Assembly: GCF_028561275.1 (NCBI RefSeq)
Contig: NZ_JAQQTF010000004.1
Span: 868,001-932,000, forward strand
DNA from: Aureisphaera galaxeae
GTDB lineage: Bacteria; Bacteroidota; Bacteroidia; Flavobacteriales; Flavobacteriaceae
Direction: 5' to 3'
DNA: 64,000 nt
Positions 6,359 to 62,835 of this stretch are shown here, piece by piece; positions within the stretch are counted from its first letter, which is position 1, and every line of letters starts with the position of its first letter. Position numbers and translations under genes: made by a program. Below the pieces are notes generated by a model that was not told the DNA's origin, did no database searches, and saw nothing but the letters and a program-made list of their open reading frames with translations.

Positions 6359-6600
6359 AGCGGTATTTTTTTCTCTTACGCGGATATCATCTGAGTAAGA
6401 GATGGTTGGTTTCTTTTTACTTAAAGGTAAGAAATTTTTGGATTCGTAATAGGGAAGGATACACGAGCGGCTAGAATGGAACTGTGAAATACCGAAAATC
6501 TGATATGAGCAGGGGATTGTGAAAAAGTCTATTTTACATAATGTAAATTATAGAACAATAAGTGCTTACCCAATTCCCAGTATTATGGCGACTTCTTGGG

Positions 6601-8325
6601 TTATACTGCGATTTCCACATACACCTCATTGTTATTCATTTTTGGGTCTCCAAAATTTGGCTCTTGGCTATCGGTCTCCACCTTTTTAATTCTCCTATTG
6701 ACCAGTACTTTTCTTATTTCTTCCAACTTATTTACATCATAACCGGGAAGTAAAATAGAATTAGTGTACTTTAAAATACTTTCTATATCCTCATCATTTC
6801 TGAACATGGTATCCAATTTTGAGAACTGTTGCTCTGAAATTTTATCTGAATATGGGATCGCTAAATTCTTAAACTCATTAGGGGTTAATTCTAGAACTCC
6901 TCCTCCATAAAACCTTCCTTCCAATTCAGCTAAAACAAAGGTTAAAGAATTATAAAAGGAAAATACAATTTTCCTTATATCATATTCATCTTTAGCATTT
7001 ATTCGATAAAATGAATCTGTAGCCAAAGCCTCAGATTCATTTACAAATATTTTTGGGTAGAGATGACTTCTTTTAATAAACATACCTTCAGAAGCCCATA
7101 CGGAAGGAACATTATACCAGTGTTCCCGTTTTTGCATTTTATATCTTTTGTGAAGTTCCCCTTTACCATCTTCTCTTTCTTCCTCTCCCTTGTAAAAGTA
7201 TTGATTTGCTATTTTACCAAATCTTTTCTTTGGTTGATTTGGGAAGTGTAAGAAGTTTACATTCTTGTTTTCATTTTTCAACTTAGCGAAATCCAAATGA
7301 CAAAAAGAAACTAGATTGGGCACAACATATCCTTTAGGTAATATTGGCTTTACTATATTTTTAAGTCTATTGAGTTTGTAATTAATTAGTGTTTCATCAT
7401 TTACTATAAAATAATCATTCGCAGCTGACACAATTCCAACTTGAGCAGTAGCTGAATAATATTTAATGGAACGAAATGCTTTTTGATAACCATCAATAAA
7501 ATTTAACTCTTCATCCGTTAAAATATAATTTGTCCATTTATCTAATGTAGTTCGATGAATATTGCTATGCTTTTCTGTAAACCTTGGTTCTTTCAAGTCT
7601 TCTAATTCATCCACTTGATAAAAAGAAAATCCATGCTCTTTAGTATTATCGATTCCTTTAATTCCTATTAATGCAACTACATCTTGTTGGATTCCTTCAA
7701 AGATCAATTCATTGAAAGCGAAAACCTCTACTCTATCAAATTCATTAACAATTATAGCTCTTAATTCTTTTGCATATTTAACCTGTAAAACTTCAGAAGG
7801 AATAACGAAACAGAGAATACCATTCCGATTTAAACTCATTATTGCAGCTTCAACGAAGGCAATCCAAATGTTATTAACTTTTCCCTTCGAAGTTATTAGA
7901 TCATTCGAATCTCTAAATTTTTCATGGACTTCATCACAACTTTTAACTTGTGCTTCTTGAAGATTCTTTCTTTTTACATAAGGTGGATTTCCAATGATTA
8001 AAGAATATTTTTTATGTTTTTCTAAAAAAAACTTTAAATAATTTTTACAATACGCTTTAGCTTGAATTTTCCCTGATCTAGGTATTAGATCCAAAGCTTT
8101 ATTTAATTCCTCTTTATTTATATCCAGTAAGTCAATACTTAAATTATGATTAGAATTTAAACTAATATTATCTAATAAAGAAGAAATAAACCGGCCATCT
8201 CCAGAACTTGGCTCTAAAATAGAAATATTGGTTTCCTCTAAGTAATTTTGAGTAATATGCTTTGTCAAAAAATCAGAAAGAATTTTTGGAGTATAATATG
8301 AACCAGTATTTTTTTTGTTAGACAT
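6601..8325 (-). CDS. N6-adenine DNA methyltransferase (TaqI/Eco57I-like), restriction-modification
   Basis: A 574-residue DNA methylase. The N-terminus has the GSYYTP phrase typical of gamma-class N6-adenine methylases. SAM-binding motif I is LEPSSGDGRF (about 37-46) and catalytic motif IV is NPPYVKR (about 113-119). The long C-terminal part (about 270-574) would be a target-recognition domain, with VLELTPNEFKNL near 478-489. I see no PD-(D/E)xK nuclease motif, so cleavage is probably provided by the HNH protein encoded 7 bases upstream. It is the last gene of a five-gene minus-strand operon and should methylate adenines in its target site to protect host DNA. The gene is visibly richer in A+T than the flanking flavobacterial genes, consistent with horizontal acquisition. 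Confidence 0.9.
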   Translation of the reverse strand: MSNKKNTGSYYTPKILSDFLTKHITQNYLEETNISILEPSSGDGRFISSLLDNISLNSNHNLSIDLLDINKEELNKALDLIPRSGKIQAKAYCKNYLKFFLEKHKKYSLIIGNPPYVKRKNLQEAQVKSCDEVHEKFRDSNDLITSKGKVNNIWIAFVEAAIMSLNRNGILCFVIPSEVLQVKYAKELRAIIVNEFDRVEVFAFNELIFEGIQQDVVALIGIKGIDNTKEHGFSFYQVDELEDLKEPRFTEKHSNIHRTTLDKWTNYILTDEELNFIDGYQKAFRSIKYYSATAQVGIVSAANDYFIVNDETLINYKLNRLKNIVKPILPKGYVVPNLVSFCHLDFAKLKNENKNVNFLHFPNQPKKRFGKIANQYFYKGEEEREDGKGELHKRYKMQKREHWYNVPSVWASEGMFIKRSHLYPKIFVNESEALATDSFYRINAKDEYDIRKIVFSFYNSLTFVLAELEGRFYGGGVLELTPNEFKNLAIPYSDKISEQQFSKLDTMFRNDEDIESILKYTNSILLPGYDVNKLEEIRKVLVNRRIKKVETDSQEPNFGDPKMNNNEVYVEIAV

Positions 8326-8332
8326 TATAGCA

Positions 8333-8962
8333 CTATAAACTATTGTAATAATCCATTAAGTCTTTATGAATCAGAACATATTTAAAACTTAAATCTTTGG
8401 CTTTTTCTTCTAATGCCCTATAATCATTCGATTGTTCGTCCATTTTTGATAGTTGCTCAGAATAAGCGAAAATTAGTTTTCGTAGTTGATTGACTTCCCA
8501 AAGAAGTTTTATGGCATAATTTCGTTCATCAAACTTAAATGCTGTATTCCACATCCACTTACCTAATTCGGTCTTCCACATGATACTGCCGTTATTCATT
8601 CTGTAAAGATGATTATCATAATCCGAATTACAAGGATCGATGAATCCCTCATTCTTGTAATTAGGAATATTTACATCCCCTGATGGCCACTTTGATAATT
8701 TGTTGTTATTACAAAACTTGCATGAATAAACTAGGTTTGAATATTCTTCTGTAGAAATTTGACCTAATGGTTCAAAGAGGGACTTCGGAATAAAATGATC
8801 AACTTCATACCAAGTATGTCTATATCCATCATAGGAACCACAATAACCACAATGACAGTGAAAATCTTCCCTTAAATCCGGTTTGTGCTGTGACCATTTT
8901 CCCTTCTTCGGAACTTTTGTGGGATTCTCTCGCCTTTTAGGAAGCTTCTCTCTTACCTTCAC
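8333..8962 (-). CDS. HNH endonuclease, probable restriction enzyme of the operon
   Basis: A 209-residue protein with an HNH nuclease core: CGYCG (C38, C41), EVDHFIPKS (about 53-61, containing the catalytic DH), and CKFCNNNK (about 81-88). The two CxxC pairs would bind a structural zinc. The basic N-terminal 30 residues (KVREKLPKRRENP) may contact DNA. It starts with GTG at 8962, and that GTGA overlaps the stop of the receiver-like gene by four bases, so translation is coupled. With the downstream methylase it makes a plausible two-protein type II restriction-modification pair, although HNH proteins are also effectors of other defence systems. Confidence 0.85.
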   Translation of the reverse strand: MKVREKLPKRRENPTKVPKKGKWSQHKPDLREDFHCHCGYCGSYDGYRHTWYEVDHFIPKSLFEPLGQISTEEYSNLVYSCKFCNNNKLSKWPSGDVNIPNYKNEGFIDPCNSDYDNHLYRMNNGSIMWKTELGKWMWNTAFKFDERNYAIKLLWEVNQLRKLIFAYSEQLSKMDEQSNDYRALEEKAKDLSFKYVLIHKDLMDYYNSL

Positions 8963-9636
8963 TTTTCTTTGTTCTTTTTAATCAGAGATTTCAAGAAATC
9001 TTCTGCCTTTTTCCTGGTTTCAGAAAGATCTTCTAATTTTTCCGAAGAAATTAACTTCTCTGGAACCTCATTTCTTTTAGTTTTATCAAGATCACCAAGT
9101 TCTCTCTGTAGCTTAATCAAATTATCTTCATCAACTATGTTTAGACCTTTTTCTTCTCCTTTTTTTAATATTTCTGATATCCTATTTTTTCTATTATCAA
9201 TACGACCTTTATAACGAACTACACTACTAATTAAGATCTTAATAAAACGCTCTGTTCTATTCCTATCATATTCTTCATCCTCTTTACTTGGGATTTCATC
9301 TTTACTAAAAATTATCTTCAAATCTTCAACATAGTTCTCAGCATCATCCCTTTTATTTGTAAAAATTATACAAGGGAACAAAGGTCTTTTATCATATATT
9401 TCTTTTTCTACTTCTTCTCCATTAAAGAAAACTTTATTTGATTCGTCCAATTTATAATCGATTAATAATAAATCGATATCGGAATTGTAAACTTGCTCCA
9501 TTAATTGATGCAAAGTCATTCCTTCAAAAAAATCATAACCTATAATTTCAATTCCGAATTCACGAAATCTACGTTTGTACTTTCTTACTTGATGCTCATC
9601 CTCATCAATATATCCGAACTTAAGCTTATTTTCCAT
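8959..9636 (-). CDS. Receiver-domain (response-regulator-like) protein without DNA-binding domain
   Basis: A 225-residue protein. Residues 1-120 resemble a divergent CheY-like receiver: an acidic cluster YIDEDEH (about 9-15), a candidate phospho-acceptor D60 in LLLIDYKLDE, a switch-like T in IIFTNKRDDA, and a lysine in FSKDE. The rest (about 120-225) is highly charged, probably coiled coil, and no HTH or other output domain is visible. It overlaps the kinase-like gene upstream by 11 bases and the HNH gene downstream by four. I infer that the double-GHKL protein phosphorylates or otherwise gates it and that it in turn controls the nuclease or methylase. The receiver assignment rests on motif positions read by eye. 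Confidence 0.7.
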   Translation of the reverse strand: MENKLKFGYIDEDEHQVRKYKRRFREFGIEIIGYDFFEGMTLHQLMEQVYNSDIDLLLIDYKLDESNKVFFNGEEVEKEIYDKRPLFPCIIFTNKRDDAENYVEDLKIIFSKDEIPSKEDEEYDRNRTERFIKILISSVVRYKGRIDNRKNRISEILKKGEEKGLNIVDEDNLIKLQRELGDLDKTKRNEVPEKLISSEKLEDLSETRKKAEDFLKSLIKKNKEK

Positions 9637-12070
9637 GTTTCTTTTTACGTATTGGGAAGGATATCAAAACCGAAAACCCCATTTCAGCATCCAATATATT
9701 AATTGTTCCATTATTGTCATCTACAACAGATTTGACAAGATACATTCCAAGACCTGTCCCAATTTCTTTACCTTTCCGATCTTTTTTTGATGTTGTGAAT
9801 GGGAGAAATATTTCATCCTGATCATCTTCAAAGATTTTATCTAGGCCAACTCCATTATCTGAATAAATAATCTCAATAAATTCACCTTTAATACCAATCT
9901 CAATTTGTATATTTCGCTCCTGAGATTTGGTCAAATTGTCAAAAGAATCAATTGAATTATTAATTAAATTGGTAAATATTGTTGACATATCCATTTCGAA
10001 AGCCCTAAAATTGTAATCAACCTTTTCCAATTGATCTATAATATTTAGACTTATGCCTTTTTTCTTAAATATTCTGGCCCAGGATAATTCTAATGATTTT
10101 AGGAAAGGAGAAAATTCGAACTTTGCTCTCTTCCTTTTATCTTTTCTTATAGCTGTTAAGGCATAATCTACCCAATGAATTACTTTATCGGAGTTTTCAA
10201 TCAACAAATCTATAATGTCAACACCGTCATTATATTCTTCGGATGACTTTTTATCTTTAGCAACAATTTCTCTAAATATTTTTTTTAAGTCCTTTACTTC
10301 GACAGCATTATCCTTTATTTCTTTAAGTTCATGGGCAAATGAAGATACTACTAGGCCTAAACTGGCTAATGACCTAATTTGAACTATCTCTTGATTTTCC
10401 TTTTGATCTCTTTCCTTTTCTAAAGCTTCAAGAATTCGTCTGAAAACTTCTTCATATGTTTTCCTTTCCTGATTTATCCTTTCATTTTCAAATAAATTTG
10501 CTATTTTTTTTCCATAAAATAATTCTTCTACCTCCTTTCTCTGTTCTATCATTTCCAAAGCCATTTCTTTTGCTTTTTCGTTAAGCTCTCTCTCTTTCTT
10601 AGTTTCCTTATCCTTTTTTATTTTAAGAAAAAGAGGATTTAGTACTTTAGTTCTATCATACTCGAACTCATGGATTACATTAACAATGATTTTTTTAAAT
10701 GTTTCAAAAGCATCATTTTCCTGTAGGGAACCTCTATCAGATTTATCAATTAATAATGGATTGTTTTTTCTTGTAATAGAAATAATCCCAGCAGTCTGCT
10801 CAGGTCTGACTCTCCAATCTCCTATTCTTTGACCAGCACCAGCAGGACTTTGCGCAACTCTAGCCCCTAATCTCAACCAATCGTTAGTAGGATCTCCATA
10901 AGGCCTAACTCTAAAAGAATCACGGTAGATTTTAACACCACCGAACCTATTTAATGTTGATCTTCGTTCACTTGCAATGACAGTTTTAAATGGATATCCT
11001 TCTTTAACGGAATTTGAAAATTTTAAATAGTAAAATGTTAATTCAAAACTACCTACATCTCTTAGTAATTTTCTTTTATCATAATTTAGCTTCCATTTCA
11101 ATACTTTATCTATTGACTTTGAATATTTAAACGTCCTTTTTTCTATTGTCTTTAGATCATAGGGTTTTTTCTGTCCTTTATAAACATCAGGAAATTGTTT
11201 CTTTAATTTACTAATGTCAATTTCGTTTCTCGTTATTTCAAAATCAACTTTTAACTCTTTTGAATCATAAGAAGCCTTTAATTTATAATCAAAATCATTA
11301 AAAAAAGCTGTTTCTACCTTACCATATTTTTTTGGCATTTGGAAATGCTTGAAAAATACCTCAAAAGGTATCTCCAACTCTTTTGGCGGAATTAATGCCT
11401 CTAGACTATTGAATACAGAAGAAATGTCATCATCAAACCAATCATCTTTTAATTTTGATATTTTAATTATTGTACCATTTTGAAAACTTAATTTTTTGAG
11501 TAACTCATCTGCCGAAATATTACTTTTAGTTAATTCTCGAATCTTAGCTTTCAAATCAATTTTCACAGTCTCAAGTTCAGCTTCAATCTCTGATATTGAC
11601 TTATCGGATTGATCAAATTGATTCCAATCCATTTTCCAATAAGAGCCGGTTTTATCCTCTGATTTTTTAGATAGTGTCCACATTTCTGTTTCAAATCCAA
11701 GCCTGTCCAGCGCAAATCTTCCGATTCCTTTTGCTCCAGTTTTAGTTCTTTTTGCGTCAGATATATAGTCCTTTTCTTTATTGCCTGTACCAATCTTCAT
11801 CCAATGGTTTTTTATTACCTTTTCGGTCATGCCCTCTCCATTATCAATAATGTATATGAAGCTTTTCTCTTTAATAGGATGATGGTGCTTTATTTCGTCA
11901 ACTTTAGTTTCACTCTTTGTTTCAATATCAAAAATAACAATGCACTGCTTAGCATCTGCATCGTAGGAATTTTTCACCAATTCTATAATAGCTCCACTTG
12001 GATTCGAGAAATTTTCTCGCCCCATCAATTTTCCAGCTCTTGCAGATACTTTAAACTGTACTTTAGCCAT
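9626..12070 (-). CDS. Histidine-kinase-like protein with two GHKL ATPase domains
   Basis: An 814-residue cytoplasmic protein. The N-terminal GHKL (Hsp90/MORC-type) ATPase shows an N box ELVKNSYDAD (about 30-39), a DNGEGM box and a GAKGIGRFALD lid motif. A long middle region ends in charged coiled coil. The C-terminus resembles a classical sensor kinase: SFAHELKE (H-box-like histidine), N box NLINNSIDSF, SDNGVGLD and GTGLGMYLVKS. There is no membrane segment, so the signal is intracellular. I choose ATG at 12070 (MAKVQF) rather than the TTG at 12097, because the ATG overlaps the stop of the upstream XRE gene in ATGGCTAA, typical of coupled genes. It is followed by receiver, HNH and methylase genes, suggesting a sensor for a restriction system. 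Similar ATPases occur in defence islands; the exact subfamily is unknown to me. Confidence 0.82.
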   Translation of the reverse strand: MAKVQFKVSARAGKLMGRENFSNPSGAIIELVKNSYDADAKQCIVIFDIETKSETKVDEIKHHHPIKEKSFIYIIDNGEGMTEKVIKNHWMKIGTGNKEKDYISDAKRTKTGAKGIGRFALDRLGFETEMWTLSKKSEDKTGSYWKMDWNQFDQSDKSISEIEAELETVKIDLKAKIRELTKSNISADELLKKLSFQNGTIIKISKLKDDWFDDDISSVFNSLEALIPPKELEIPFEVFFKHFQMPKKYGKVETAFFNDFDYKLKASYDSKELKVDFEITRNEIDISKLKKQFPDVYKGQKKPYDLKTIEKRTFKYSKSIDKVLKWKLNYDKRKLLRDVGSFELTFYYLKFSNSVKEGYPFKTVIASERRSTLNRFGGVKIYRDSFRVRPYGDPTNDWLRLGARVAQSPAGAGQRIGDWRVRPEQTAGIISITRKNNPLLIDKSDRGSLQENDAFETFKKIIVNVIHEFEYDRTKVLNPLFLKIKKDKETKKERELNEKAKEMALEMIEQRKEVEELFYGKKIANLFENERINQERKTYEEVFRRILEALEKERDQKENQEIVQIRSLASLGLVVSSFAHELKEIKDNAVEVKDLKKIFREIVAKDKKSSEEYNDGVDIIDLLIENSDKVIHWVDYALTAIRKDKRKRAKFEFSPFLKSLELSWARIFKKKGISLNIIDQLEKVDYNFRAFEMDMSTIFTNLINNSIDSFDNLTKSQERNIQIEIGIKGEFIEIIYSDNGVGLDKIFEDDQDEIFLPFTTSKKDRKGKEIGTGLGMYLVKSVVDDNNGTINILDAEMGFSVLISFPIRKKKHGK

Positions 12071-12275
12071 TATTATATTGTGCTTTATTAGAAACAATTA
12101 AATCTTTAATATCTATGTTCAAAATATCAGTAATGAGATTCAAATCTTCAAGACTTGGCGGTCTTCTATTTTGGACATAAGAATTAACCATATTCTAACT
12201 CTTTTTTAACTTTTCTGCGAACCAAACTTGTTTTAAACCTTTCTCTCCAAATACCTCTTTAATGCGATTTATCAT
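12063..12275 (-). pseudogene. XRE-family HTH regulator interrupted by an in-frame TAG
   Basis: Read on the minus strand from ATG at 12275, this frame gives an XRE/Cro-type helix-turn-helix protein of about 70 residues: MINRIKEVFGEKGLKQVWF, AEKLKKS, then a TAG stop (12195-12197), then NMVNSYVQNRRPPSLEDL and DIKDLIVSNK up to TAA at 12063. The residues on both sides of the stop form one continuous HTH domain, so a single change (for example TAT or TAC for tyrosine to TAG) explains the break. Small regulators of this type commonly head restriction-modification operons in Bacteroidota, acting like C proteins. Its stop overlaps the ATG of the kinase-like gene by 8 bases. It is either a true pseudogene, a sequencing error, or a recent loss-of-control mutation. 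Confidence 0.8.
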
Positions 12276-12305
12276 ACTAATCAAGTTCAATAATAAAAAT
12301 AGCAT

Positions 12306-12350
12306 AATCATTTAATTTTATATCATGTTTTGAGATAAAATTAAATCATT
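12306..12350 (-). promoter_or_regulatory. Inverted repeat upstream of the XRE/restriction operon, candidate operator
   Basis: A 16-base inverted repeat with one mismatch (arms 12306-12321 and 12335-12350, 13-base spacer) sits 31-75 bases upstream of the XRE start codon. Position and symmetry suit an operator for the XRE regulator that controls the operon. The arms are very A/T-rich and lack a T-tract terminator context for the neighbouring genes. Confidence 0.5.
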
Positions 12351-12642
12351 ACCTGACTTATACATTCCACACCTATTCCCCTTCCCCCTACGTCGTTAAG
12401 GAAAAGAGTCTTGCCTTACTTTGTTAAAGAATCCGAAGGGATAAAAATTTTCCGAAAAAACTTTAGTGCAAACTTTCACTTTTATCCAAAGCTCAGGTTG
12501 CATTAGCGCAAGAGCATTATAATACAAACTGCATTATATCATAATTCGACATTATACTGAATCGCTTTGATGTGTCGTACTGAGTGCCATAACCCTAACA
12601 ACTTGCAAATAAACATAAGGGTGTGTTAACAACGAAAAGATC
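12351..12642. other. Intergenic stretch without a recognised gene
   Basis: About 290 bases between the operator-like repeat of the restriction operon and the terminator of the esterase/beta-lactamase gene. I see no convincing coding frame or RNA gene; the operon-proximal side may hold the rest of the promoter. It probably marks the right-hand junction of the acquired A+T-rich block, but no direct repeat or tRNA attachment site is visible. Confidence 0.5.
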
Positions 12643-12673
12643 AAAAAAACAACCCCAGGACAAGCTCGGGGTT
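12643..12673 (-). terminator. Intrinsic terminator of the esterase/beta-lactamase gene
   Basis: On the minus strand a short AACCCC/GGGGTT stem (12651-12656 with 12668-12673) is followed by a run of seven Ts, about 50 bases after the stop codon of the gene at 12720. Confidence 0.6.
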
Positions 12674-12719
12674 ATCACAAATTTTGCCTAAGTTATGTTA
12701 GCTTAGAAAGAACCGATTA

Positions 12720-14714
12720 CTATTTAGCAAATGCAGGAACGACGGTTTCAAAAATGGGTTTCATGATCTTGTCATCGTCCCGGTCATAACCCATAATGAC
12801 AATGGTTAAATCAAGTTCTTCTACAACCATAACCCGCTGGCTACCACCTCCCCAGGCCAGTGTCATATCATAGCTTTTGTTACCAACGGTTACTGGTGTG
12901 TAGTACCAAAAATATCCATATAAATAATTCTTGGGCATCCAATCTATGGCAGGCCGTACAATCCCGCGGGTAGCTTCTTCCAGATAGGCAGCAGAAATAA
13001 ACTGTTCTCCGTTTAATTTTCCCCTGTTTTGTACCAAATGCCCTAATTTTAGCATGTCACGAGATTTCATTTTTACCATCCACCCTGCCTGCGGTAGCCC
13101 ACTTACATGTTTGGACCATTCATAATCGGTAATACCAAGAGGATCTAGTAGCTCATTTTTAATGAAGGCCTCAGCCGATCCCGGCACTACAGCATCAATT
13201 ACCGTCATCACCAACATGGGATTAAAATTTCCGTACAAATAAGTCTGCGTCTCATCGGTAATAGGCTCGCTACGTTCCAAAAGCGTCTGCACCAGCCCCT
13301 GCCCTTTCAAACGAACGGAATCATTTTCAATTTCTTTCCATTGTTCCCTGTCGATCGTCAATCCACCTTGCATGGTTAATGCCTTGTGAAGTGTGATTTT
13401 TTCGTATCCTTTGGTGAATTTCTTAGGGTCTACATCTTTCAAGAAATGAGTCAAAGGCTTGTGGAGATCGTCCATACTTAAATATCCCATCTCAATAGCC
13501 CGTCCCAATACCAAACTGGTATACCCCTTTACTGCGGAGGCTTGCCCATGCGGCACATTGACACGCCCCTTGTTGTAATAGGATTCATATACCAATTGGT
13601 TCTTATGTGAAATAAGTAACGCATCGTAATGACCATATTTGCCGTCAAAAATCTCTTGCGAGACCTTTTTGATTGCGTTTTGGTCTTCGCTACTCACCGC
13701 TAAAGTATCAACCATTATTCCATCTTTTCTGTCCTCTGGAGTGGTCGTGACAAATGCCTTATTGAGTCGCGGAGTCGACCAGAATGAGGTCTCATTGCCA
13801 AGGCTTGAAACCGGGTTCAATATAGACGACAACCAGGCTGCGCTGCGAACGGCTGTTGCAGGAAATGCAGTACTATGGTTCCCATCGATCACTTCTTTAT
13901 ACACGGATAAACCAAGATCTCTTCGATCGTTTAATAATTTGATGAACGATTCCATAGGCGCAACCACTCTCTCTTCTTCCAATGAGCCATAGGCAATAAA
14001 AACATTGGCATTTAGACTCGAGTTCTTATTTGAGGCCTCATAAGGCCCAAATTGAGTATTCATTTCGGTTAACATATCGACTTCTCCCCTAACCGTTGGA
14101 CTGCCAATAATGTAGTTGTTAAAGGTATCCGGTTGCTTCATTAGAATATACGCACCAAATTCCCCACTCAGTGAGTATCCGAAATACGTGCGACTGTTTG
14201 GGTCCGTGCGGTAGGTTTTGTCCACATAGGTAATAACATCATTGCGAACAAAATCGAGATGCTTATGGGCCTGTCCTAATTGAAATTTTGCTTGAACTTC
14301 CGGATTGCTGTGTTCTCTTATCGAATAATCCCGAAACCTACTCACATGCGCTCCTACTTCTTTTTTTAAGTCTTCATCGATGTCTAATTGATACGAAATT
14401 CCAACTAGAATCACATCTTCAATAATGAATTCCTGACAGGTAGATAGTACTTCAAGATGCCACTTAGCATCTGTATAATAAAGGACAGGATACCTTTTAG
14501 TAGGGTTTTCAGCATAATCTCCTGGCAACTCTATATACAGTTCATAGTTTCTTTCTGTTTTTGTGTCCTTTATGGGGACTACCCGAATTTGTGGTGATTC
14601 TAAAGAAGATCCTACTACAGGTGATACAATTTCCTTTACACTATTTTCCTGTGCAAAGGCATTATTTGTTAGTATAAGAAGAAGTAATAGTAGACCTTTG
14701 GTTAAGCTTTTCAT
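12720..14714 (-). CDS. Periplasmic esterase fused to a beta-lactamase-type serine hydrolase
   Basis: A 664-residue exported protein with a signal peptide (1-21). The N-terminal part (about 45-300) is a putative-esterase alpha/beta hydrolase (PF00756, IroE/esterase D-like) with the nucleophile elbow FGYSLSGEFG and a terminal histidine in DGNHSTAFP. The C-terminal part (about 335-664) is a class C beta-lactamase/penicillin-binding-like serine hydrolase with SxxK in ASAVKGYT, YxN in LYGNFNPM and the third motif region in WGGGSQR. Two different serine hydrolases on one chain suggest a two-step hydrolysis of an ester or amide substrate in the periplasm; the substrate is unknown. It is divergent from the LytS/LytTR pair at 14894-16584, which may regulate it. 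Confidence 0.85.
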   Translation of the reverse strand: MKSLTKGLLLLLLILTNNAFAQENSVKEIVSPVVGSSLESPQIRVVPIKDTKTERNYELYIELPGDYAENPTKRYPVLYYTDAKWHLEVLSTCQEFIIEDVILVGISYQLDIDEDLKKEVGAHVSRFRDYSIREHSNPEVQAKFQLGQAHKHLDFVRNDVITYVDKTYRTDPNSRTYFGYSLSGEFGAYILMKQPDTFNNYIIGSPTVRGEVDMLTEMNTQFGPYEASNKNSSLNANVFIAYGSLEEERVVAPMESFIKLLNDRRDLGLSVYKEVIDGNHSTAFPATAVRSAAWLSSILNPVSSLGNETSFWSTPRLNKAFVTTTPEDRKDGIMVDTLAVSSEDQNAIKKVSQEIFDGKYGHYDALLISHKNQLVYESYYNKGRVNVPHGQASAVKGYTSLVLGRAIEMGYLSMDDLHKPLTHFLKDVDPKKFTKGYEKITLHKALTMQGGLTIDREQWKEIENDSVRLKGQGLVQTLLERSEPITDETQTYLYGNFNPMLVMTVIDAVVPGSAEAFIKNELLDPLGITDYEWSKHVSGLPQAGWMVKMKSRDMLKLGHLVQNRGKLNGEQFISAAYLEEATRGIVRPAIDWMPKNYLYGYFWYYTPVTVGNKSYDMTLAWGGGSQRVMVVEELDLTIVIMGYDRDDDKIMKPIFETVVPAFAK

Positions 14715-55604: not shown

Positions 55605-56144
55605 TTGTGCCCGATAAAACAAATATTGACAGAACCCATTCATTCGGATATAGCCGAAAAGAATTATGACGATTTCACTTTTCGCCCCCCTCGCCCATCA
55701 GATGCCGCCAACATACATCATTTGGTGAGCGCTTCTGGAGTATTGGATATAAATTCTACCTACTGCTATATGCTAATGGGTGCGCATTATGCACAAACAT
55801 GTACAGTGGTCGAAGATGGAGAAAAGATGATCGGAGCGCTATGCGGATATATTCCTCCAGAAAAGGAAGATACCTTGTTCGTTTGGCAAATCACTACCGA
55901 CAAGCAGTACAGGCGATTAGGTGTTGCTGAAGCCATGATCGAAAGTATCATCGCTAGGTTATCTCCTACGGCTAAGTTTCTTGAAGCCACAGTATGTCCT
56001 GGAAACCAAGGTTCCCTTGCTTTTTTTGAAGCCTTTGCGGCTAAGCGAAGTACCACTGTGGTGAAATCGCTCCTATTTCCTGCATCCCTATTTAGGGAAG
56101 CATCCCATGAAGACGAATATTTATTAAGGATAGGTCCCTTATGA
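55605..56144 (+). CDS. ectA-like: EctA-like diaminobutyrate acetyltransferase (GNAT)
   Basis: A 179-residue GNAT-family protein closely resembling EctA: FRPPRPSDAANIHHLVSASG, then LDINSTYCYMLMGAHYAQTC, LFVWQITTD, and the acetyl-CoA loop RRLGVAEAM, ending with SHEDEYLLRI. EctA acetylates L-2,4-diaminobutyrate in ectoine synthesis. Here ectB and ectC are absent and the neighbours are biosynthetic genes, so it more likely acetylates a diamino acid or amine for this pathway. There is no ATG; start is TTG at 55605 or 55626. Its stop overlaps the next gene by four bases. Confidence 0.85.
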   Translation: MCPIKQILTEPIHSDIAEKNYDDFTFRPPRPSDAANIHHLVSASGVLDINSTYCYMLMGAHYAQTCTVVEDGEKMIGALCGYIPPEKEDTLFVWQITTDKQYRRLGVAEAMIESIIARLSPTAKFLEATVCPGNQGSLAFFEAFAAKRSTTVVKSLLFPASLFREASHEDEYLLRIGPL

Positions 56145-57028
56145 AAAAGGAAGCACAATCAAATATAGAAGCCAAAGCGGCCAAGACCATGCAAAAACTG
56201 GTTGGCCAGAGTATGGAAAGGGAGTACAATCCCTACAAAGATTTTAATTGGTCCGAATCCCTTCCAAACGATCAAGTATGGATGAGTCCAGAGCTTTTGT
56301 CCATTTATAAGGTAATTCCTTTTGATACTATAGACGACACTCAATTCATGGCTCTTTGTAAATGGGAGAGTCTTAATTTTTACAGTATCAATGTTCATGG
56401 GATACGGGAGTTATTAACTGCTGTACTTCAATACATATATCAACCAGGCTTTGAGGAATATTCGGATTATTTAAATCACTTTTTGGGTGAAGAAAATGAG
56501 CATATGTGGTTTTTTGCCCAATTCTGTCTTCGCTACGGAGGAGAGATTATGCCGTATAAACGATTCCGATTCGATTCATCCTACCCTGCCGAAATCCAAC
56601 GGTTCATCACCTTTTCACAGATTCTGATTTTCGAAGAGATCGGGCATTACTACAATAAATATATGATGAAGGACAGTCGGTTACCTGAGATTGTACAAAG
56701 TATAAACCGCGTGCACTACGAGGATGAGAGTCGGCATATTAGTATGGGGAAAGTATTGACCGAAGTATTCTACAATGAACTTTTGCAGAAGCATTCCAAA
56801 AAAGATATGAAGAAAATTGAAGCATATCTGGTTCGGTACATTCAATTTAGTTTGGAAGGTTTCTATAACCCCACTTGTTATCGCAATGCGGGATTTAAGG
56901 AACCCCTCAAACTCAGGAACCGTTTACTCGAACATCCTGAGCGGAAAGCTTTTCATAGAACGGTTTTAAAGCATACCCTTCACTTTTTTGAAGACAGGCT
57001 AGGGTTTACAGCAACTATAAATATTTAA
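56141..57028 (+). CDS. AurF-type diiron oxygenase
   Basis: A 295-residue ferritin-like diiron enzyme resembling AurF (p-aminobenzoate N-oxygenase family). The iron ligands of the family can be read: glutamate in KWESLNFY, ExxH in EENEHMWFF, glutamate and histidine in FEEIGHYY, and the pattern HYEDESRHISM. These enzymes oxidise amines to hydroxylamine or nitro groups; related proteins act in pathways that make N-N bonds (established knowledge). Its ATG overlaps the EctA-like stop by four bases; the carrier protein follows after three bases, so an amino acid bound to that carrier is a possible substrate (inference). Confidence 0.85.
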   Translation: MKKEAQSNIEAKAAKTMQKLVGQSMEREYNPYKDFNWSESLPNDQVWMSPELLSIYKVIPFDTIDDTQFMALCKWESLNFYSINVHGIRELLTAVLQYIYQPGFEEYSDYLNHFLGEENEHMWFFAQFCLRYGGEIMPYKRFRFDSSYPAEIQRFITFSQILIFEEIGHYYNKYMMKDSRLPEIVQSINRVHYEDESRHISMGKVLTEVFYNELLQKHSKKDMKKIEAYLVRYIQFSLEGFYNPTCYRNAGFKEPLKLRNRLLEHPERKAFHRTVLKHTLHFFEDRLGFTATINI

Positions 57029-57031
57029 GGC

Positions 57032-57280
57032 ATGCTAACATTAACGCATCAAAAAACACTAGATACCCTAAAGACTTGGTTACTTCAATTGGATGCCAAT
57101 GAAGGCGTTGAAGACATTTCTCCAAATGAAGACCTTATAGACGGTGGCCTTATCGATTCGCTAGAATTTGTGAGCTTTTTAATGCTAATAGAGGATCTAA
57201 GGGGAGCCGAAATTACTTCCTTCGAAATGGAATTGGATAAGTTTAGAACCCTCAACTCAATCATTAAAAACTTCTTCTAA
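57032..57280 (+). CDS. Acyl/aminoacyl carrier protein
   Basis: An 82-residue four-helix protein with the phosphopantetheine site GGLIDSLEFVSFL (serine about residue 45). It ends with a helix starting TLNSIIKNFF. It is too small to carry any enzyme domain, so it would hold the intermediate as a thioester for the other enzymes. Next gene starts at the following base. Confidence 0.88.
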   Translation: MLTLTHQKTLDTLKTWLLQLDANEGVEDISPNEDLIDGGLIDSLEFVSFLMLIEDLRGAEITSFEMELDKFRTLNSIIKNFF

Positions 57281-58132
57281 ATGGAAACGCAATTATCAAT
57301 TTCCGAAGAAAAAAGTCAAGTGTTAGACGAGGCATTATTGCTGGTAAATGAGGCAGATAAAACACTCATGGATTTACTGGAGCAGTGTTTCCTTGTTTGG
57401 GGGAAGAAAATGAAAACTGTAGAAATAAGCTTCCCTCCCATTATCTCTATAAAAGACTTGGAGACGATCAACTATTTTGAAGATCACCCAACGCAGGCCG
57501 TTTTCCTATCGGCTATACCTTCTTACACGAATCCATCCGAGGGTAGTTATGCAAACAACGCGGAGCCATTACAATACGCCCTAAACCCAGCAGCGTGCTA
57601 TCACGCCTATATATCGCAACGGGATCAGGAAATTGATGAAATGGTCCGGATTTCGACACAGACAAAATGTTTCCGAAATCAGCCTCCCTATTCGTCCACA
57701 GGACGTATGTTCACATTTACACAGCGAAAATTTGTGTTCATGGGCGGTTCTCAAGAAGTACGGAATGCTCTCAAATCCTCCGAAAAATTCGTGTATGAGC
57801 TGGGAACAGCATTGGGATTGGAGTTAGGAGAACAGCCATCGCAAGCCCCGAACTATATAGAAGATCCAAAATTGGGTAAGGTAAAAGCCTTGTTTTTGGC
57901 TGACAAAGAATTCATGTATAAATCTTTCCCAGCATTATGCCATACCAATTTTCATCGTAATTATTTCTGTAAACGGTTAAACGTAAAACTATCCAACGGA
58001 AGATACGCCTTTGCTGGTTGCTTGGGAGTCATCCCAGAATACTGGCTGCTTAGCCTAAAGGACAAGTATGGCTCCGATATGACCACCATTACTCAATTGT
58101 TAAATAACTATCTCAATATTAATGCTCAATAA
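57281..58132 (+). CDS. Amino acid:[carrier protein] ligase-like protein, class II synthetase fold
   Basis: A 283-residue protein resembling the small seryl-tRNA-synthetase-like ligases that load amino acids on carrier proteins. Recognisable: AACYHAYIS (about 104-112), motif 2 TKCFRNQ (128-134) with FTFTQRKFVFMG after it, CHTNFHRNYF (about 221-230) and GCLGVIPEYW (near 250). In the ligases I recall the last motif reads CVGFGLERW and motif 2 FRHE; here the motif 3 arginine is replaced by tyrosine and the motif 2 glutamate by glutamine. Activation of an amino acid may therefore be lost. Directly follows the carrier protein gene. Confidence 0.78.
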   Translation: METQLSISEEKSQVLDEALLLVNEADKTLMDLLEQCFLVWGKKMKTVEISFPPIISIKDLETINYFEDHPTQAVFLSAIPSYTNPSEGSYANNAEPLQYALNPAACYHAYISQRDQEIDEMVRISTQTKCFRNQPPYSSTGRMFTFTQRKFVFMGGSQEVRNALKSSEKFVYELGTALGLELGEQPSQAPNYIEDPKLGKVKALFLADKEFMYKSFPALCHTNFHRNYFCKRLNVKLSNGRYAFAGCLGVIPEYWLLSLKDKYGSDMTTITQLLNNYLNINAQ

Positions 58133-58133
58133 T

Positions 58134-59006
58134 ATGAACGAAGCAACAAACTATCAGGAAAAAGACCTTGTAAGATTCGAAGATTTATTCGAAAATGCAC
58201 TTATCGGACTCCATATCGTAGGAGGCGATGGTATTATAAAAAGAGCCAATAAGGCAGATTATACGCCGATTGGTCTAGAAAACGACCCTGCAAGCTATAT
58301 TGGCAAACACATTGCTCAATTTCATTCCGAACAGGCTGTCATTGAGGATATGCTGGATCGATTAATACACGATCGTCCTCTGGTGAGTTACAAGGCAAAT
58401 CTTAAGTCTGTTGAGGGAGATGCCGTTCCCGTGGCGATTTATTCCAACTCATTAATGGATGGAAGTGACTTTGTAAATACACGCTGTTTTACAAAACCTG
58501 TTGCGGAGTCCATTCAGGATTTTTCAGAAAAACAAAAAGCAAACCCTGTCAACGTTAATGATCTCCTTGCTGGCTTGAACGAGGATGAAAAAAAACGCCG
58601 CTTTACCGAACTGGAGGATTTCTTCATGCAGGGAAGTATTCCCGTTCATATAGTAGGTCCCGACGGTACTATTCTTTGGGCCAACCAAGCAGAACTGAAG
58701 TCCATGGGATATGAAGATGCACCAGAAGAGTACATTGGCCAGCCCATTATGAAGTTTCATGCAGATCAGGCAGTCATCGAAGAAATGCTTACCCGACTGT
58801 TGGATAATCGCCCCTTGGTGAATTTCAGCGCGAAGTTGGTGCGTAAAGATGGAACTACTTTCCCGGTGAGTATTTGTTCCAATTCAAGGATGGAAAATGG
58901 TGAGTTTATTAATACCCGATGCTTTACCTATCCTTTGGATACGACGACTGAAACATCTACGACAAATGGATTTGTATGGCCGAGAAATGAAGATATACAG
59001 GCATGA
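58134..59006 (+). CDS. Tandem PAS-domain protein without output domain
   Basis: A 290-residue soluble protein made of two similar PAS domains (about 15-130 and 160-280) that share phrases such as FHSEQAVIEDML/FHADQAVIEEML and VNTRCFT/INTRCFT. No kinase, cyclase or DNA-binding domain follows. It may bind a cofactor, light-sensitive ligand or small molecule. Start at ATG 58134 (one base after the preceding stop) is preferred to the ATG at 58122. Stop overlaps the GAF gene by four bases. Confidence 0.85.
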   Translation: MNEATNYQEKDLVRFEDLFENALIGLHIVGGDGIIKRANKADYTPIGLENDPASYIGKHIAQFHSEQAVIEDMLDRLIHDRPLVSYKANLKSVEGDAVPVAIYSNSLMDGSDFVNTRCFTKPVAESIQDFSEKQKANPVNVNDLLAGLNEDEKKRRFTELEDFFMQGSIPVHIVGPDGTILWANQAELKSMGYEDAPEEYIGQPIMKFHADQAVIEEMLTRLLDNRPLVNFSAKLVRKDGTTFPVSICSNSRMENGEFINTRCFTYPLDTTTETSTTNGFVWPRNEDIQA

Positions 59007-59695
59007 AATTAGCTACAGCGAGCCATACCAAACAAGAATTCTGGAAACAGACCATGACCTACATTGTGGGTCGCAAAAAAGTTGAGGAGTTTTTGGGTTT
59101 TTTAGTAGAGAGTAGCAAAATACTCATGAGCGATACGAGCTTCTACGATACATTCCCAAAGTTAGGTGAAATCGCAGTCCCTTATTTAGGGGATTGGTTT
59201 AGTATCGACTTGTTCTTTGGACCGGGAAGGGTTCAAAACGTGACTGAACAGCATATGGCGGGGCTCGACCCAGCTATGAATATAAAAATTGGTGAGGCCT
59301 TTAGACCGTATACGCAAAAGGATGCTGGAGGCAAACGGAGCATAGTGGCTTCAAAAACACCAAGAATTTATAAGACAACTCCTCAAAATACAAATGAGGG
59401 GCCTGAATCTATTCTATCCAATTTAGGGGTGCGGTCGGCACTTATTGTACCCTTAGTGTTACCCAGTGGTTGCATTGGAACCATGGAGATATTGTCGCTC
59501 GAAAGCAGTGAAGAACGTCTTTATGGACCTGCAGAGATGGCATTGGCCGAAGAATTGGGAAGAAGGGTGAGCCTGGCGGTAGAACGCAGTGTATTATACC
59601 ATGAAAATCAAAGATTTAAAAACGAGAAAGCCAGAAAAATTTCAACCTTCTACAAAGAAGGTCACAATACATACAATCATAGTTATAAAATTTAA
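59003..59695 (+). CDS. GAF-domain protein
   Basis: A 230-residue protein with one GAF domain (about 25-205; LEILSLESSEERLYG-like end region EILSLESSEERL) and no output domain. It is coupled to the PAS gene by a four-base overlap, so the two probably form one sensory unit in the biosynthetic operon. The ligand is unknown. Confidence 0.8.
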   Translation: MKLATASHTKQEFWKQTMTYIVGRKKVEEFLGFLVESSKILMSDTSFYDTFPKLGEIAVPYLGDWFSIDLFFGPGRVQNVTEQHMAGLDPAMNIKIGEAFRPYTQKDAGGKRSIVASKTPRIYKTTPQNTNEGPESILSNLGVRSALIVPLVLPSGCIGTMEILSLESSEERLYGPAEMALAEELGRRVSLAVERSVLYHENQRFKNEKARKISTFYKEGHNTYNHSYKI

Positions 59696-59706
59696 AACTA
59701 AGCAAT

Positions 59707-60072
59707 ATGAGTAAGCAAGATTTAGGACAAAAAGTCCCAGGAGCTGACAACACCTATGCAAAAACCTTGAGTCAAGGGGCAGATATGGAAGTGCAGCGAG
59801 TTACGATTTTAAATGGAGGAAATATTCCTCTACACTCCCACCCATTTGGGCAATCCTATGTAGTTATTGCAGGAGAAGGTGCGATAGTTACACCTAGTGG
59901 AAAGTCTGCGGTTGGACCAGGTGCAGCGGGATACTTTAAGCCCGAAGAACCACATGGATGGGAAAGCGAAGGAGGCGAACTGGTTTTTGTTTCTTCCTCG
60001 GCAAGTGAAGATGGAATCTACGAGGCCAATGAGGTTTCTGGGGGAAAATGGAACATTCACTACCATAGCTAA
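59707..60072 (+). CDS. Cupin-domain protein
   Basis: A 121-residue single-domain cupin with metal ligands readable as H43, H45, Q49 and H83 (LHSHPFGQSYVV ... EEPHGW). Such small cupins can be dioxygenases, isomerases or metal-binding proteins; in some pathways they catalyse N-N bond formation together with a synthetase-like domain (established knowledge). Its 3' end overlaps the adenylation gene by 44 bases. Confidence 0.85.
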   Translation: MSKQDLGQKVPGADNTYAKTLSQGADMEVQRVTILNGGNIPLHSHPFGQSYVVIAGEGAIVTPSGKSAVGPGAAGYFKPEEPHGWESEGGELVFVSSSASEDGIYEANEVSGGKWNIHYHS

Positions 60073-61588
60073 AAAGGCGTCCGAAACCACAGATTTTCTT
60101 CCTGTTCACCTGCAATTTGAAAAGGTAACCTTTTCCCATCCGGATAAAGTTGCCCTTATTGATGGTGCTGGGAAGGCTATGTCCTATGCACAGCTGCTGG
60201 AACAAGTTTATCATTTAAGTGCTCTCTTACTTGATAAAGGGGTAAAGAAAGGCGATGTAGTAGCCTTTCGAAGCTCTCATAATTCAAATCTAATCGTAGG
60301 CATACTAGGTATTCTAGGCGCAGGTGGCGTAATGCTTCCCATTTCTCTAGAGATGCCTAATGAAATGGTATCAGCACAACTCGAAGATTGCAAGGTTCGG
60401 TTTATTCTTACTGAAAATGGAGCAGTATCTCCAGAAACCAAGGGCTTCGTCCAAATTCAGATGAATGTACCATTTACCCCTGTAAATGGCTCGTTCAAAT
60501 TACTTTCAGGTAAGCACGCCTATATCATTTACACCTCAGGATCTAGTGGGAAACCCAAAGGGGTCAGGGTTTCCCATATGGGTATTGCCAATCTATGTCA
60601 TTGGTATCGGGAATTCTGCCATATCGGGCCATCGAGCAGGACCTTGATCATGATTCCGTTTACTTCCGATGCAATGTATAAAAACATTTTCGGCACCCTC
60701 TGTTCCGGGGGAACCCTTGTCATGAGTGATAAGGCAGGATACCATCCTTTACGCATTTTAAAGCGAATTCAAGATGAACAAATAACCCACATTAATTGTG
60801 TTCCAAGAGCCATTTATCAAGTATTATATCTGGCAAGTCGAAATGAATACAAAGGGCTAAATTCTTTAAAGGCCTTGATTTTGGGAGGAGAAACCATAAA
60901 TCCCGCGCATTTGGCCGATTGGTTTCAGAAAAAAGAATCCTCCTGCTCTCTATATAATATGTACGGCCCTACGGAATGCACCGATATCTCCATCGCTACC
61001 CAACTAAAGCATTCACAATTAACGGCTGGGACATCTATTCCAATAGGTAAACCCATACAGGGTATGAAAGCATATATCGTAAATGACGATGGGGTATTAC
61101 ATCCTAATGGAAGGAAAGGTGAACTCTGGATTTCCGGTGTTGGTGTTACCCATGGCTATATCAATAATCATATACTAACTGCTCATAATTTCATCCCGGA
61201 TCCATTTTCAGAAAAGGAAACGGTGTATAAAACTGGAGATTTATGTTCCCGGGATGAGAATGGCAATATATATTTTCATGGTAGAATCGACCGACAGATC
61301 AAAATTAAGGGATTCAGGGTAGAACTGGAAGAAATAGAATTTCGGTTGAAAGAGGTTCAAGGCGTATTACAGGCTGTCGTACTTCCAACGAAAGCGAACG
61401 GAGAAATAGACAAGTTGAAAGCATTTGTCGTTATGGAAGATGAACTTAAAATGGACGTTGTGAGGCTTCAAATCCATTTGATGAAATACCTACCCAAGTA
61501 TATGATTCCGAACATAATAGTACAAATAGATAGTATCCCCATCGCTTCCAATGGAAAAACCGATTTTAAACAATTGGCGATGAATTAG
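60029..61588 (+). CDS. Free-standing NRPS-type adenylation enzyme
   Basis: A 519-residue AMP-forming enzyme (start ATG 60029, inside the cupin gene; ATG 60011 possible). Adenylation motifs: IIYTSGSSGKPKGV (A3), YNMYGPTEC (A5), YKTGD (A7), GRIDRQIKIKGFRVELEEIE (A8) and NGKTD with the catalytic lysine (A10). The aspartate that binds the substrate amino group appears conserved (PFTSDAMYKN). No carrier or condensation domain is attached, so it should load an amino acid on the separate carrier protein at 57032. Confidence 0.88.
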   Translation: MRFLGENGTFTTIAKKASETTDFLPVHLQFEKVTFSHPDKVALIDGAGKAMSYAQLLEQVYHLSALLLDKGVKKGDVVAFRSSHNSNLIVGILGILGAGGVMLPISLEMPNEMVSAQLEDCKVRFILTENGAVSPETKGFVQIQMNVPFTPVNGSFKLLSGKHAYIIYTSGSSGKPKGVRVSHMGIANLCHWYREFCHIGPSSRTLIMIPFTSDAMYKNIFGTLCSGGTLVMSDKAGYHPLRILKRIQDEQITHINCVPRAIYQVLYLASRNEYKGLNSLKALILGGETINPAHLADWFQKKESSCSLYNMYGPTECTDISIATQLKHSQLTAGTSIPIGKPIQGMKAYIVNDDGVLHPNGRKGELWISGVGVTHGYINNHILTAHNFIPDPFSEKETVYKTGDLCSRDENGNIYFHGRIDRQIKIKGFRVELEEIEFRLKEVQGVLQAVVLPTKANGEIDKLKAFVVMEDELKMDVVRLQIHLMKYLPKYMIPNIIVQIDSIPIASNGKTDFKQLAMN

Positions 61589-61671: not shown

Positions 61672-62835
61672 TTGGAGAGTCTACAGCACATCATAGATCA
61701 GATACCCATTCGCCACGATCTGGCTTCGCACATTATGTTTTTGGGAATTGTACAGGCGTACTTTCTAAGTTTAGTCATTTTTGTGCGCTCTAAGGCAGGA
61801 TCGGCCATTCGCATTTTTGGTTGGGCATTGCTCATTCAAGCCATCGTTTGTACGGACACCTATCTCTGCTATACGGGGCTTATGAAATATACCCTACATG
61901 CAAATGATTCCACGGAACCTTTGGTACTGCTTATCGTACCTTCCATCTATTTCTTTACATATGCCTTGTTAGAGCGTAAACCGATACGCTTAAAAACACA
62001 CTGGATGCACTTTTTGCTGCCAGTACTATACATGCTCACTCAGATTGGATATTATACGAGTCCTTTGGAAGTCAAGCTCAATGCCTACCTAGATGCCTAT
62101 CATGATGCTATCCCTATGGTAGCCGTCCCCGAAGGTACTACCTATAAATATCAATTAATTAAAAGTGAATTCCGCTGGTTGATCCTTATTAGCGTTTCAG
62201 TTTATATAGTGCTCTGCATTTTACTCCTTGTGAAAAAGCGAAAAACAATAAAACCTGCTACCCAAAAGGTGAAGGTCGATAAATATGTATTTACCCGGAA
62301 CTCGGTCTTATCCCTCGTTCTGCTGCTTGGGGTATTGCTCTTCATCTTTCTGCGTTACGACGACGATGCAGGGGATCATTACATTGTGATTTTTATGGCT
62401 GCACTCACCTTTGTAAGTTCAGTATTCATTCTTTCAGAATCACGGTTCTTCGAGAATTCTTGGATCGCCGATAAATATGAAACCCTTACTTCTAATGGGG
62501 TGGACTTTGTAGACATTGAAACGTATTTGCAGGAGGGACTTTCCTTTCTCTCTTCAGAAATGTCCCTAAAATCCTTGGCTTCACATTTGGATGTAAATGC
62601 CAATGCTGTTTCCAAAATCATCAACACAGAAACAGGATATAATTTCAACGATTATATCAATCAGAAGCGTATCGAAGTGGCCAAAGGTAAGCTGTTGGAT
62701 TCCCAGTATGCTCATCTAACGGTCGAGGCCATTGGACAATCGGTAGGTTTCAATTCTAAATCTACTTTCTACAATGCCTTCAAAAAACATGTGGGCATAT
62801 CCCCTACCCAATTTATGAAGCAAAATAAGGGATAA
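61672..62835 (+). CDS. AraC-family regulator with multi-helix membrane domain
   Basis: A 387-residue protein: about seven N-terminal helices (20-270) and a C-terminal AraC HTH (about 285-385; LASHLDVNANAVSKIINTE and VGFNSKSTFYNAFKKHVG). The membrane part would sense a signal directly. It starts with TTG at 61672; no ATG is in frame. It lies 83 bases after the biosynthetic operon on the same strand and may regulate it. Confidence 0.88.
   Translation: MESLQHIIDQIPIRHDLASHIMFLGIVQAYFLSLVIFVRSKAGSAIRIFGWALLIQAIVCTDTYLCYTGLMKYTLHANDSTEPLVLLIVPSIYFFTYALLERKPIRLKTHWMHFLLPVLYMLTQIGYYTSPLEVKLNAYLDAYHDAIPMVAVPEGTTYKYQLIKSEFRWLILISVSVYIVLCILLLVKKRKTIKPATQKVKVDKYVFTRNSVLSLVLLLGVLLFIFLRYDDDAGDHYIVIFMAALTFVSSVFILSESRFFENSWIADKYETLTSNGVDFVDIETYLQEGLSFLSSEMSLKSLASHLDVNANAVSKIINTETGYNFNDYINQKRIEVAKGKLLDSQYAHLTVEAIGQSVGFNSKSTFYNAFKKHVGISPTQFMKQNKG

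Follow-up and report, generated by a model that had tools for sequence, protein, structure and literature searches.

What could a bacterium make with an operon that encodes an AurF-type amine oxygenase, a stand-alone carrier protein (CP), two candidate enzymes for charging this carrier, and two proteins with sensory folds? This question is raised by positions 55605–61588 of a 64,000-nucleotide stretch of the Aureisphaera galaxeae genome (the window). An earlier note, made from the DNA letters, had described eight same-strand genes of named families at this place. Open reading frames (ORFs) together with Pfam and NCBIfam profile searches confirmed this description: the eight genes are real, all lie on the + strand, and are followed by a regulator gene.

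55605..56144, + strand: GNAT acetyltransferase of the EctA (L-2,4-diaminobutyrate N4-acetyltransferase) type (NCBIfam TIGR02406)
56141..57028, + strand: nonheme diiron oxygenase of the AurF type, predicted to N-oxygenate a carrier-bound amino acid (PF11583)
57032..57280, + strand: stand-alone CP with a DSL serine for phosphopantetheine (PF00550)
57281..58132, + strand: class II seryl-tRNA synthetase (SerRS)-like homologue of amino-acid:[carrier protein] ligase, probably catalytically dead (NCBIfam NF005479)
58122..59006, + strand: PAS-PAS protein, no output domain recognized (PF13426, TIGR00229)
59003..59695, + strand: GAF protein, no output domain recognized (PF01590)
59707..60072, + strand: small Cupin_2 protein (PF07883)
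60029..61588, + strand: stand-alone amino acid adenylation enzyme (TIGR01733)
61672..62835, + strand: AraC/HTH_18 regulator downstream, candidate cluster member only (PF12833, 61.9 bits)

The best reading of this operon, by analogy with what is reported for fragin, is that it would oxidize an amine while the substrate is tethered to the CP. In the fuller account that we favor, and that we believe almost as much as we doubt, the operon would encode a small thiotemplate pathway in which the EctA-type enzyme acetylates an amino acid, the adenylation enzyme loads it onto the CP, and the AurF-type enzyme oxidizes its nitrogen, with the SerRS-like protein retired from service.

The state of the SerRS-like protein is central to this account. 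It has no Pfam match and scores 57.9 bits against the amino-acid:ACP ligase model NF005479, far below the cut-off of 357. It consists of a class II SerRS-like core without the tRNA-binding domain. The glycine:[carrier protein] ligase Bll0957 is its nearest relative of known structure in both sequence and fold: the ten best solved folds for an AlphaFold2 model of the window protein (mean predicted local distance difference test score, pLDDT, 83) are all Bll0957 entries (TM-score 0.78). We compared its residues with those of 85 SerRS-like proteins from 89 loci examined. At three aligned positions the window protein carries Q134, K150, and Y254, whereas the relatives carry E (85/85), E (85/85), and R (84/85). 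The sole relative without the arginine, from locus L060, deviates at a cysteine as well, so that a misalignment or a broken sequence is possible at this place. A HMMER alignment places the three changes at E161, E176, and R286 of Bll0957 (numbering inferred with a tag offset of 20), active-site residues that the family keeps and the window protein does not retain. We take E176 to be a zinc ligand and E161 and R286 to be ATP contacts. Two cysteines, the motif-2 arginine, and the N of NFHR are retained. With three nearly invariant residues changed, the window ligase has probably lost its activity, and loading has probably passed to the intact adenylation enzyme. In line with this, an adenylation domain lies close to AurF in four loci that have no ligase near it (L012, L035, and plasmid loci L006 and L008).

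The adenylation enzyme scores 333.7 bits against TIGR01733 (cut-off 317.4; run on the longer frame from 59897), and its core motifs are intact. At the presumed specificity-determining positions, it reads DAKNIGMDIK. The string shares DAK with glutamate-type strings and lacks the acidic residue typical of diaminobutyrate- or ornithine-activating domains, which is weak evidence that it would fit an acetylated side chain. A D-alanine (Dlt) system was rejected as an explanation, with the adenylation enzyme and the CP scoring under the DltA and DltC cut-offs.

The AurF-type protein is predicted to be an amine oxidizer. It scores 98.8 bits against PF11583 (cut-off 29.6), and E76, E117, E118, H121, E165, H192, E196, and H199 are invariant in 17/17 aligned members; by analogy with AurF, these eight positions are the likely diiron ligands. 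For its model (pLDDT 91) the closest solved folds are CmlI and AurF, both distant (E about 4e-4). The best eight PDB rows of the fold search are all weak CmlI or AurF matches, four of them at E ≤ 0.001, with TM-scores of 0.49–0.62; a sequence-profile search of the PDB with the AurF profile gave no match. The CP scores 20.6 bits against PF00550 (PP-binding), just below the cut-off of 20.8, and the alignment places the DSL serine. The host genome holds two matches over cut-off to phosphopantetheinyl transferase (PPTase) families. Homology thus supports the earlier note in placing an AurF-type amine oxygenase and an amino acid bound to a CP in the pathway of a single operon. The note's synthetase-like ligase is not supported as a working enzyme.

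To see which of these genes travel together, we scanned genome contigs of 84,980 species with the AurF protein, by a method that detects only sequences with one of two conserved peptide patterns and that may exclude the window's own genome. It returned 230 relative-encoding stretches, of which the best 80 were kept (AurF identity 41–48%). Without L025, which is the same record as L003, these give 79 loci; they are not 79 species, since several come from one genome (L016/L075, L050/L071). Neighbors were counted on the same strand within 4 kb of AurF, between midpoints of stop-to-stop frames, by BLASTP at E up to 1e-3. By this measure a ligase was found in 75 loci, a CP in 75, both in 74, and the order AurF-ligase-CP in 69. 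An adenylation domain was found in four, a count that misses the nonribosomal peptide synthetase (NRPS) adjoining AurF in L054; PAS and GAF modules were found in one (L012), and cupin and EctA-type genes in none. The trio also occurs on plasmids of Tistrella, two Streptomyces, and Agrobacterium vitis, with 19 of 72,556 plasmid records matched by the AurF protein in tblastn, six of them at 33% identity or more. In L054 (Blastocatellia) the cassette is flanked by NRPS genes, of which the later includes a thioesterase. Because the trio recurs in 74/79 loci, on plasmids, and amid NRPS genes, this distribution argues that AurF, ligase, and CP cooperate on a carrier-bound amino acid, with a chemistry that would resemble that of the fragin pathway.

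Several of these loci are of interest in themselves. A nitronate monooxygenase is annotated beside the cassette in plasmid loci L003, L004, and L007 and not in L005, which suggests a nitro or nitronate stage in the former three. L006 (Nostoc plasmid, 5810–10870) places an AurF of the window's family near an adenylation domain with the string DLYNMSLIWK, presumably close to cysteine strings; a pathway to an N-oxidized cysteine is possible there. By eye, one frame of L035 (Myxococcus eversor, 7898–13691) fuses reductase-like and alpha/beta-hydrolase-like regions to AurF and is followed by an adenylation enzyme and a gene resembling pyridoxal phosphate (PLP)-dependent decarboxylases. Many of the 83 AurF loci from genome contigs and plasmids share neighbor families, with same-strand clusters in 19 to 56 loci. 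In L017 (5979–20409) such neighbors are methyltransferases, a MaoC-type dehydratase, a Cys/Met-metabolism PLP enzyme, a PPTase, MetK, a PfkB kinase, methionine synthase, and S-adenosylhomocysteine hydrolase, which we read as methylation and S-adenosylmethionine recycling.

Close relatives of the host look different. AurF of the window's family was found in 0/391 other genomes sampled from the phylum and 0/396 others of the family (E up to 1e-20), and the SerRS-like protein in 0/391 others of the phylum (E up to 1e-6). Among 98 other close relatives a single genome has a SerRS-like protein, at 28% identity and in a different context (L002), where its neighbors are a small protein resembling a carrier and, judged by eye, a gene resembling those of acyl-CoA dehydrogenases. 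The complete set of eight genes occurs in no other genome or locus examined. Because its AurF was not found in these 391 and 396 genomes, the cluster is an uncommon one within its lineage; horizontal acquisition would fit this but is not proved by it. Conservation among relatives, which the earlier note had proposed as a check, therefore fails within the family and phylum and returns in part elsewhere, as the trio in other phyla and as the joint occurrence of AurF, CP, PAS, GAF, and an adenylation enzyme in a single Acidobacteriota genome. Since the trio recurs in 74/79 loci and these five elements share a locus in another phylum, the eight-gene grouping is more than chance.

This second locus, L012 (Holophagales UBA5704, Acidobacteriota), is the only one of the 79 with PAS and GAF modules beside AurF. 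Its AurF has 48% identity to the window's, the highest among the best 80 of 230 scan relatives, and is its sister in a tree of 86 rows (support 97/89). The family was found in 3/347 sampled Acidobacteriota genomes, including that of L012 (the other two being L102 and L103), and in 1/72 genomes of its order, L012's own. As in the window, the L012 operon runs AurF, CP, PAS-PAS-GAF, stand-alone adenylation enzyme. Unlike in the window, PAS and GAF are fused in one 474-residue protein between CP and adenylation enzyme, the 20.8 kb of the locus contain no SerRS-like, cupin, or EctA-type match, and the operon leads into an NRPS with carrier, condensation, adenylation, and reductase domains. The PAS-PAS parts are identical at 115/286 positions and the GAF parts at 46/197; the window GAF protein scores 22.5 bits against PF01590 (cut-off 22.4). 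Pfam and NCBIfam searches recognized no output domain in the PAS and GAF proteins of either locus, and a PDB sequence search with the L012 PAS-GAF protein gave no match. Because plasmid relatives of the PAS protein are, where annotated among the matches listed, PAS domain S-box proteins, the module probably derives from signaling proteins. Our guess is that its role in the operon is sensory or scaffolding.

We then considered what the operon may use as a building block. The acetyltransferase scores 160.6 bits against the EctA equivalog TIGR02406 (cut-off 120.6) and is identical to solved EctA structures at 63/155 (3D3S) and 52/156 (6SJY) positions. It is the only EctA in the host genome, and none was found in 59 other relatives; the same search was positive in 0/14 control genomes and so has no positive control. 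An EctB equivalog is encoded elsewhere in the genome (G000:C16:283681–284892, 577.8 bits, cut-off 552.2), with eight weaker EctB-profile matches in the genome all under the cut-off; no control genome (0/14) has an EctB over it. EctC (PF06339) is absent from the host genome (E up to 1). Since the EctA cut-off is passed, EctB is encoded, and EctC is absent, N4-acetyl-diaminobutyrate is the likely product of the window acetyltransferase and may be the operon's building block. A precedent for masking an amine by a GNAT enzyme before carrier loading is DobB of the dob pathway, which acylates hydrazinoacetic acid before CP loading and oxidation (PMC13061610).

The favored pathway would then proceed as follows, in an order that we infer. 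The EctA-type enzyme would acetylate the side-chain nitrogen of L-2,4-diaminobutyrate, supplied by the EctB-type transaminase encoded elsewhere. The adenylation enzyme would activate the acetylated amino acid, or another one with a carbonyl-bearing side chain, and load the CP. The AurF-type enzyme would oxidize the free alpha-amine of the carrier-bound substrate to a hydroxylamine, oxime, nitroso, or nitro level, and the cupin may act further on the oxidized nitrogen before release. The SerRS-like protein would once have been the loading ligase; with its own chemistry gone, it would now, if it functions at all, serve to bind the carrier. For the PAS-PAS and GAF proteins we envisage built-in sensory modules with a small molecule or cofactor as ligand and with a regulatory or scaffolding part in the pathway.

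Several observations weigh against this account. EctB sits among the NRPS genes of a separate cluster (L110, G000:C16:276000–293000), beside TauD-type, Asp/Glu-racemase-type, Cupin_8, and radical-SAM (below cut-off) genes, a cluster that perhaps makes a diaminobutyrate-containing peptide; because of this location, diaminobutyrate has another use in the host cell. In none of the 79 loci did BLASTP find an EctA-type or cupin gene near AurF, which leaves the proposed roles of these two genes without comparative support. The string DAKNIGMDIK depends on the positions presumed to determine specificity, and we can name no close match to it. The pairing of a missing ligase with a nearby adenylation domain in the four loci named above is suggestive only, because L051 has AurF and neither loader was found there, and L069 is cut by a contig end. 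Orthology between the window's stand-alone adenylation enzyme and that of L012 is not clear-cut: the window enzyme scores slightly higher against the L012 NRPS domain (194 bits) than against the L012 stand-alone enzyme (167 bits). The sister pair formed by the two AurF proteins consists of two long branches joined in the tree, and L102 and L103 carry AurF, CP, and ligase with no PAS or GAF match. Finally, release of the product from the carrier is unexplained, because neither an exporter nor any thioesterase, condensation, or reductase domain is encoded among the eight genes.

The cupin scores 31.1 bits against PF07883 and shows, by eye, an HxH...Q...H stretch. Its matches to solved structures are weak (8AWP, E 2e-5; TM1459, 1.5e-4; RemF, 1.7e-4), and its best NCBIfam match, mandelonitrile lyase (24 bits, cut-off 140), was not adopted as its function. 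The plasmid collection holds no match at E up to 1e-6. As to layout, the earlier note had reported overlaps or gaps of a few bases; most are indeed 0 to 4 bases, with the exception of an 11-base overlap between ligase and PAS genes (unless PAS starts at ATG 58134), an 11-base gap between GAF and cupin genes, and a 44-base overlap where the adenylation gene most likely starts within the cupin gene (ATG 60029, 519 residues). The acetyltransferase has, by eye, no in-frame ATG upstream of its conserved part, and TTG (55605 or 55626) is the only start. No RNA families or tRNAs were found in the window. Promoter-like sites (17 vs 17.6 in shuffles) do not exceed the shuffles, and the Bacteroidota-type promoter pattern gave one match (26015, far from the cluster) where 2.4 were expected. 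Terminator-like sites number 10 vs 6.1 (standard deviation 2.5) in shuffles and fall on both strands, also inside genes.

An alternative for the PAS and GAF proteins is that they are the receptor of the operon's own signal, sensing the N-oxidized product or a redox or metal state and controlling the AraC regulator or the N-oxygenase. Both are ligand-binding sensory folds, the module is present in operons of two phyla, its annotated plasmid relatives among the matches listed are the S-box proteins mentioned above, and valdiazen is a signal (PMC5878181). The eight genes, however, encode neither an output domain nor a kinase, and the promoter scans revealed nothing above shuffles, so that we find this reading doubtful, if the least so of the alternatives. 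We regard it as unlikely that the SerRS-like protein is still an enzyme of altered chemistry, one that moves a loaded or oxidized acyl group from the CP elsewhere or loads without the usual contacts. Its intact frame, its kept fold, and the retained cysteines, arginine, and asparagine would fit such an activity; the three altered positions, one of them presumably a zinc ligand, speak against it. The family is reportedly zinc-dependent (PMC9437257).

Similarly improbable is an N–N bond-forming pathway in which AurF would hydroxylate the nitrogen of the carrier-bound amino acid and an N–N bond would be formed by the cupin, with or without help from the ligase-like protein, to yield a diazeniumdiolate or hydrazine-type signal or metallophore, after the logic of ham (fragin/valdiazen) or alanosine. 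In the ham operon, too, a cupin occurs with an AurF homologue and with an NRPS-like protein that bears the valine during loading and oxidation (PMC11659414, PMC5878181), and a cupin protein is proposed for the N–N step of alanosine (PMC11705231). Yet the ham cupin HamB is reported to be non-essential for valdiazen, and its mutant still gave fragin (PMC11659414); the heme-oxygenase-like and HamE-type proteins proposed for N–N formation in ham (PMC11705231) are missing from the eight genes; of the 16 PDB matches of the window cupin (solved structures only, E up to 0.01), none is named as an N–N cupin, be it of the SznF or of the cupin/MetRS hydrazine synthetase kind; and the eight genes encode no enzyme that forms nitrite, nitric oxide, or nitrosuccinate, in a search that did not extend to the rest of the genome. 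The earlier note's parallel to cupins that act with synthetase-like proteins was also dropped: the known hydrazine synthetase pairs have a class I methionyl-tRNA synthetase (MetRS)-like protein, whereas the window protein is class II SerRS-like. Least credible is a decaying acquired cluster that makes nothing, with the ligase as an early casualty. The AurF family occurs in 1/397 family members (the own genome only) and ligase residues are changed, but all eight frames are open and tightly packed, the likely diiron ligands and the adenylation motifs are intact, and the G+C content of the cluster (0.415) compares with 0.388 for the window.

Our preferred reading remains acetylation, adenylation-dependent loading, and N-oxidation on the CP. 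A bolder version, for which we would not claim more than a slim likelihood, has an exchange of loading enzymes under way: the class II ligase would now be a non-catalytic carrier-handling subunit, the NRPS-type adenylation enzyme would load, PAS-PAS and GAF would form an allosteric or redox subunit of the N-oxygenase, and N-oxidized N4-acetyl-diaminobutyrate would serve as signal or metal ligand. In either form, a recurring AurF-ligase-CP cassette of several phyla is now tied to a variant in which the replacement of the loader can be read from sequence, and the operon offers a testable substrate, N4-acetyl-diaminobutyrate. Sensor folds without output domains lie inside a biosynthetic operon in two phyla, where PAS and GAF may work as pathway subunits.

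The window's EctA-type acetyltransferase and the EctB encoded elsewhere in the genome resemble parts of the ectoine pathway EctABC. Ectoine biosynthesis was rejected because the genome has no EctC, and for the same reason the window cupin is not EctC. A link to nocuolin was rejected as well, NocN and NocO being described as only distantly AurF-like (PMC5333925). The resemblance to Bll0957 ends at the three altered active-site positions. The AurF-ligase-CP cassettes, mostly from Streptomyces, have the same three proteins on one strand and differ in that they keep the ligase residues and, apart from L012, have no PAS or GAF; searches of open-licence PMC papers yielded no such cassette with a product. 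Nor did they turn up a described pathway with exactly this set of eight genes; the earlier note had likewise known of none. The ham/pvf/mgo systems (fragin, valdiazen) come closest. They pair an N-oxygenase of the AurF type with an NRPS-like protein that loads the amino acid onto a carrier, have a cupin (ham only), and are small operons linked to signaling (PMC11659414, PMC5878181); in the fragin pathway, carrier-tethered valine is reportedly oxidized by HamC (PMC11659414). Unlike them, going by the feature list of PMC11659414, the operon lacks the multidomain reductase NRPS, heme-oxygenase-like, and cyclase genes, and it adds SerRS-like, EctA-type, PAS, and GAF proteins; HamC and HamB were compared by description only. 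We class the operon as a new form of carrier-tethered amine oxidation whose logic is closest to ham/pvf/mgo, rather than a member of the diazeniumdiolate clusters.

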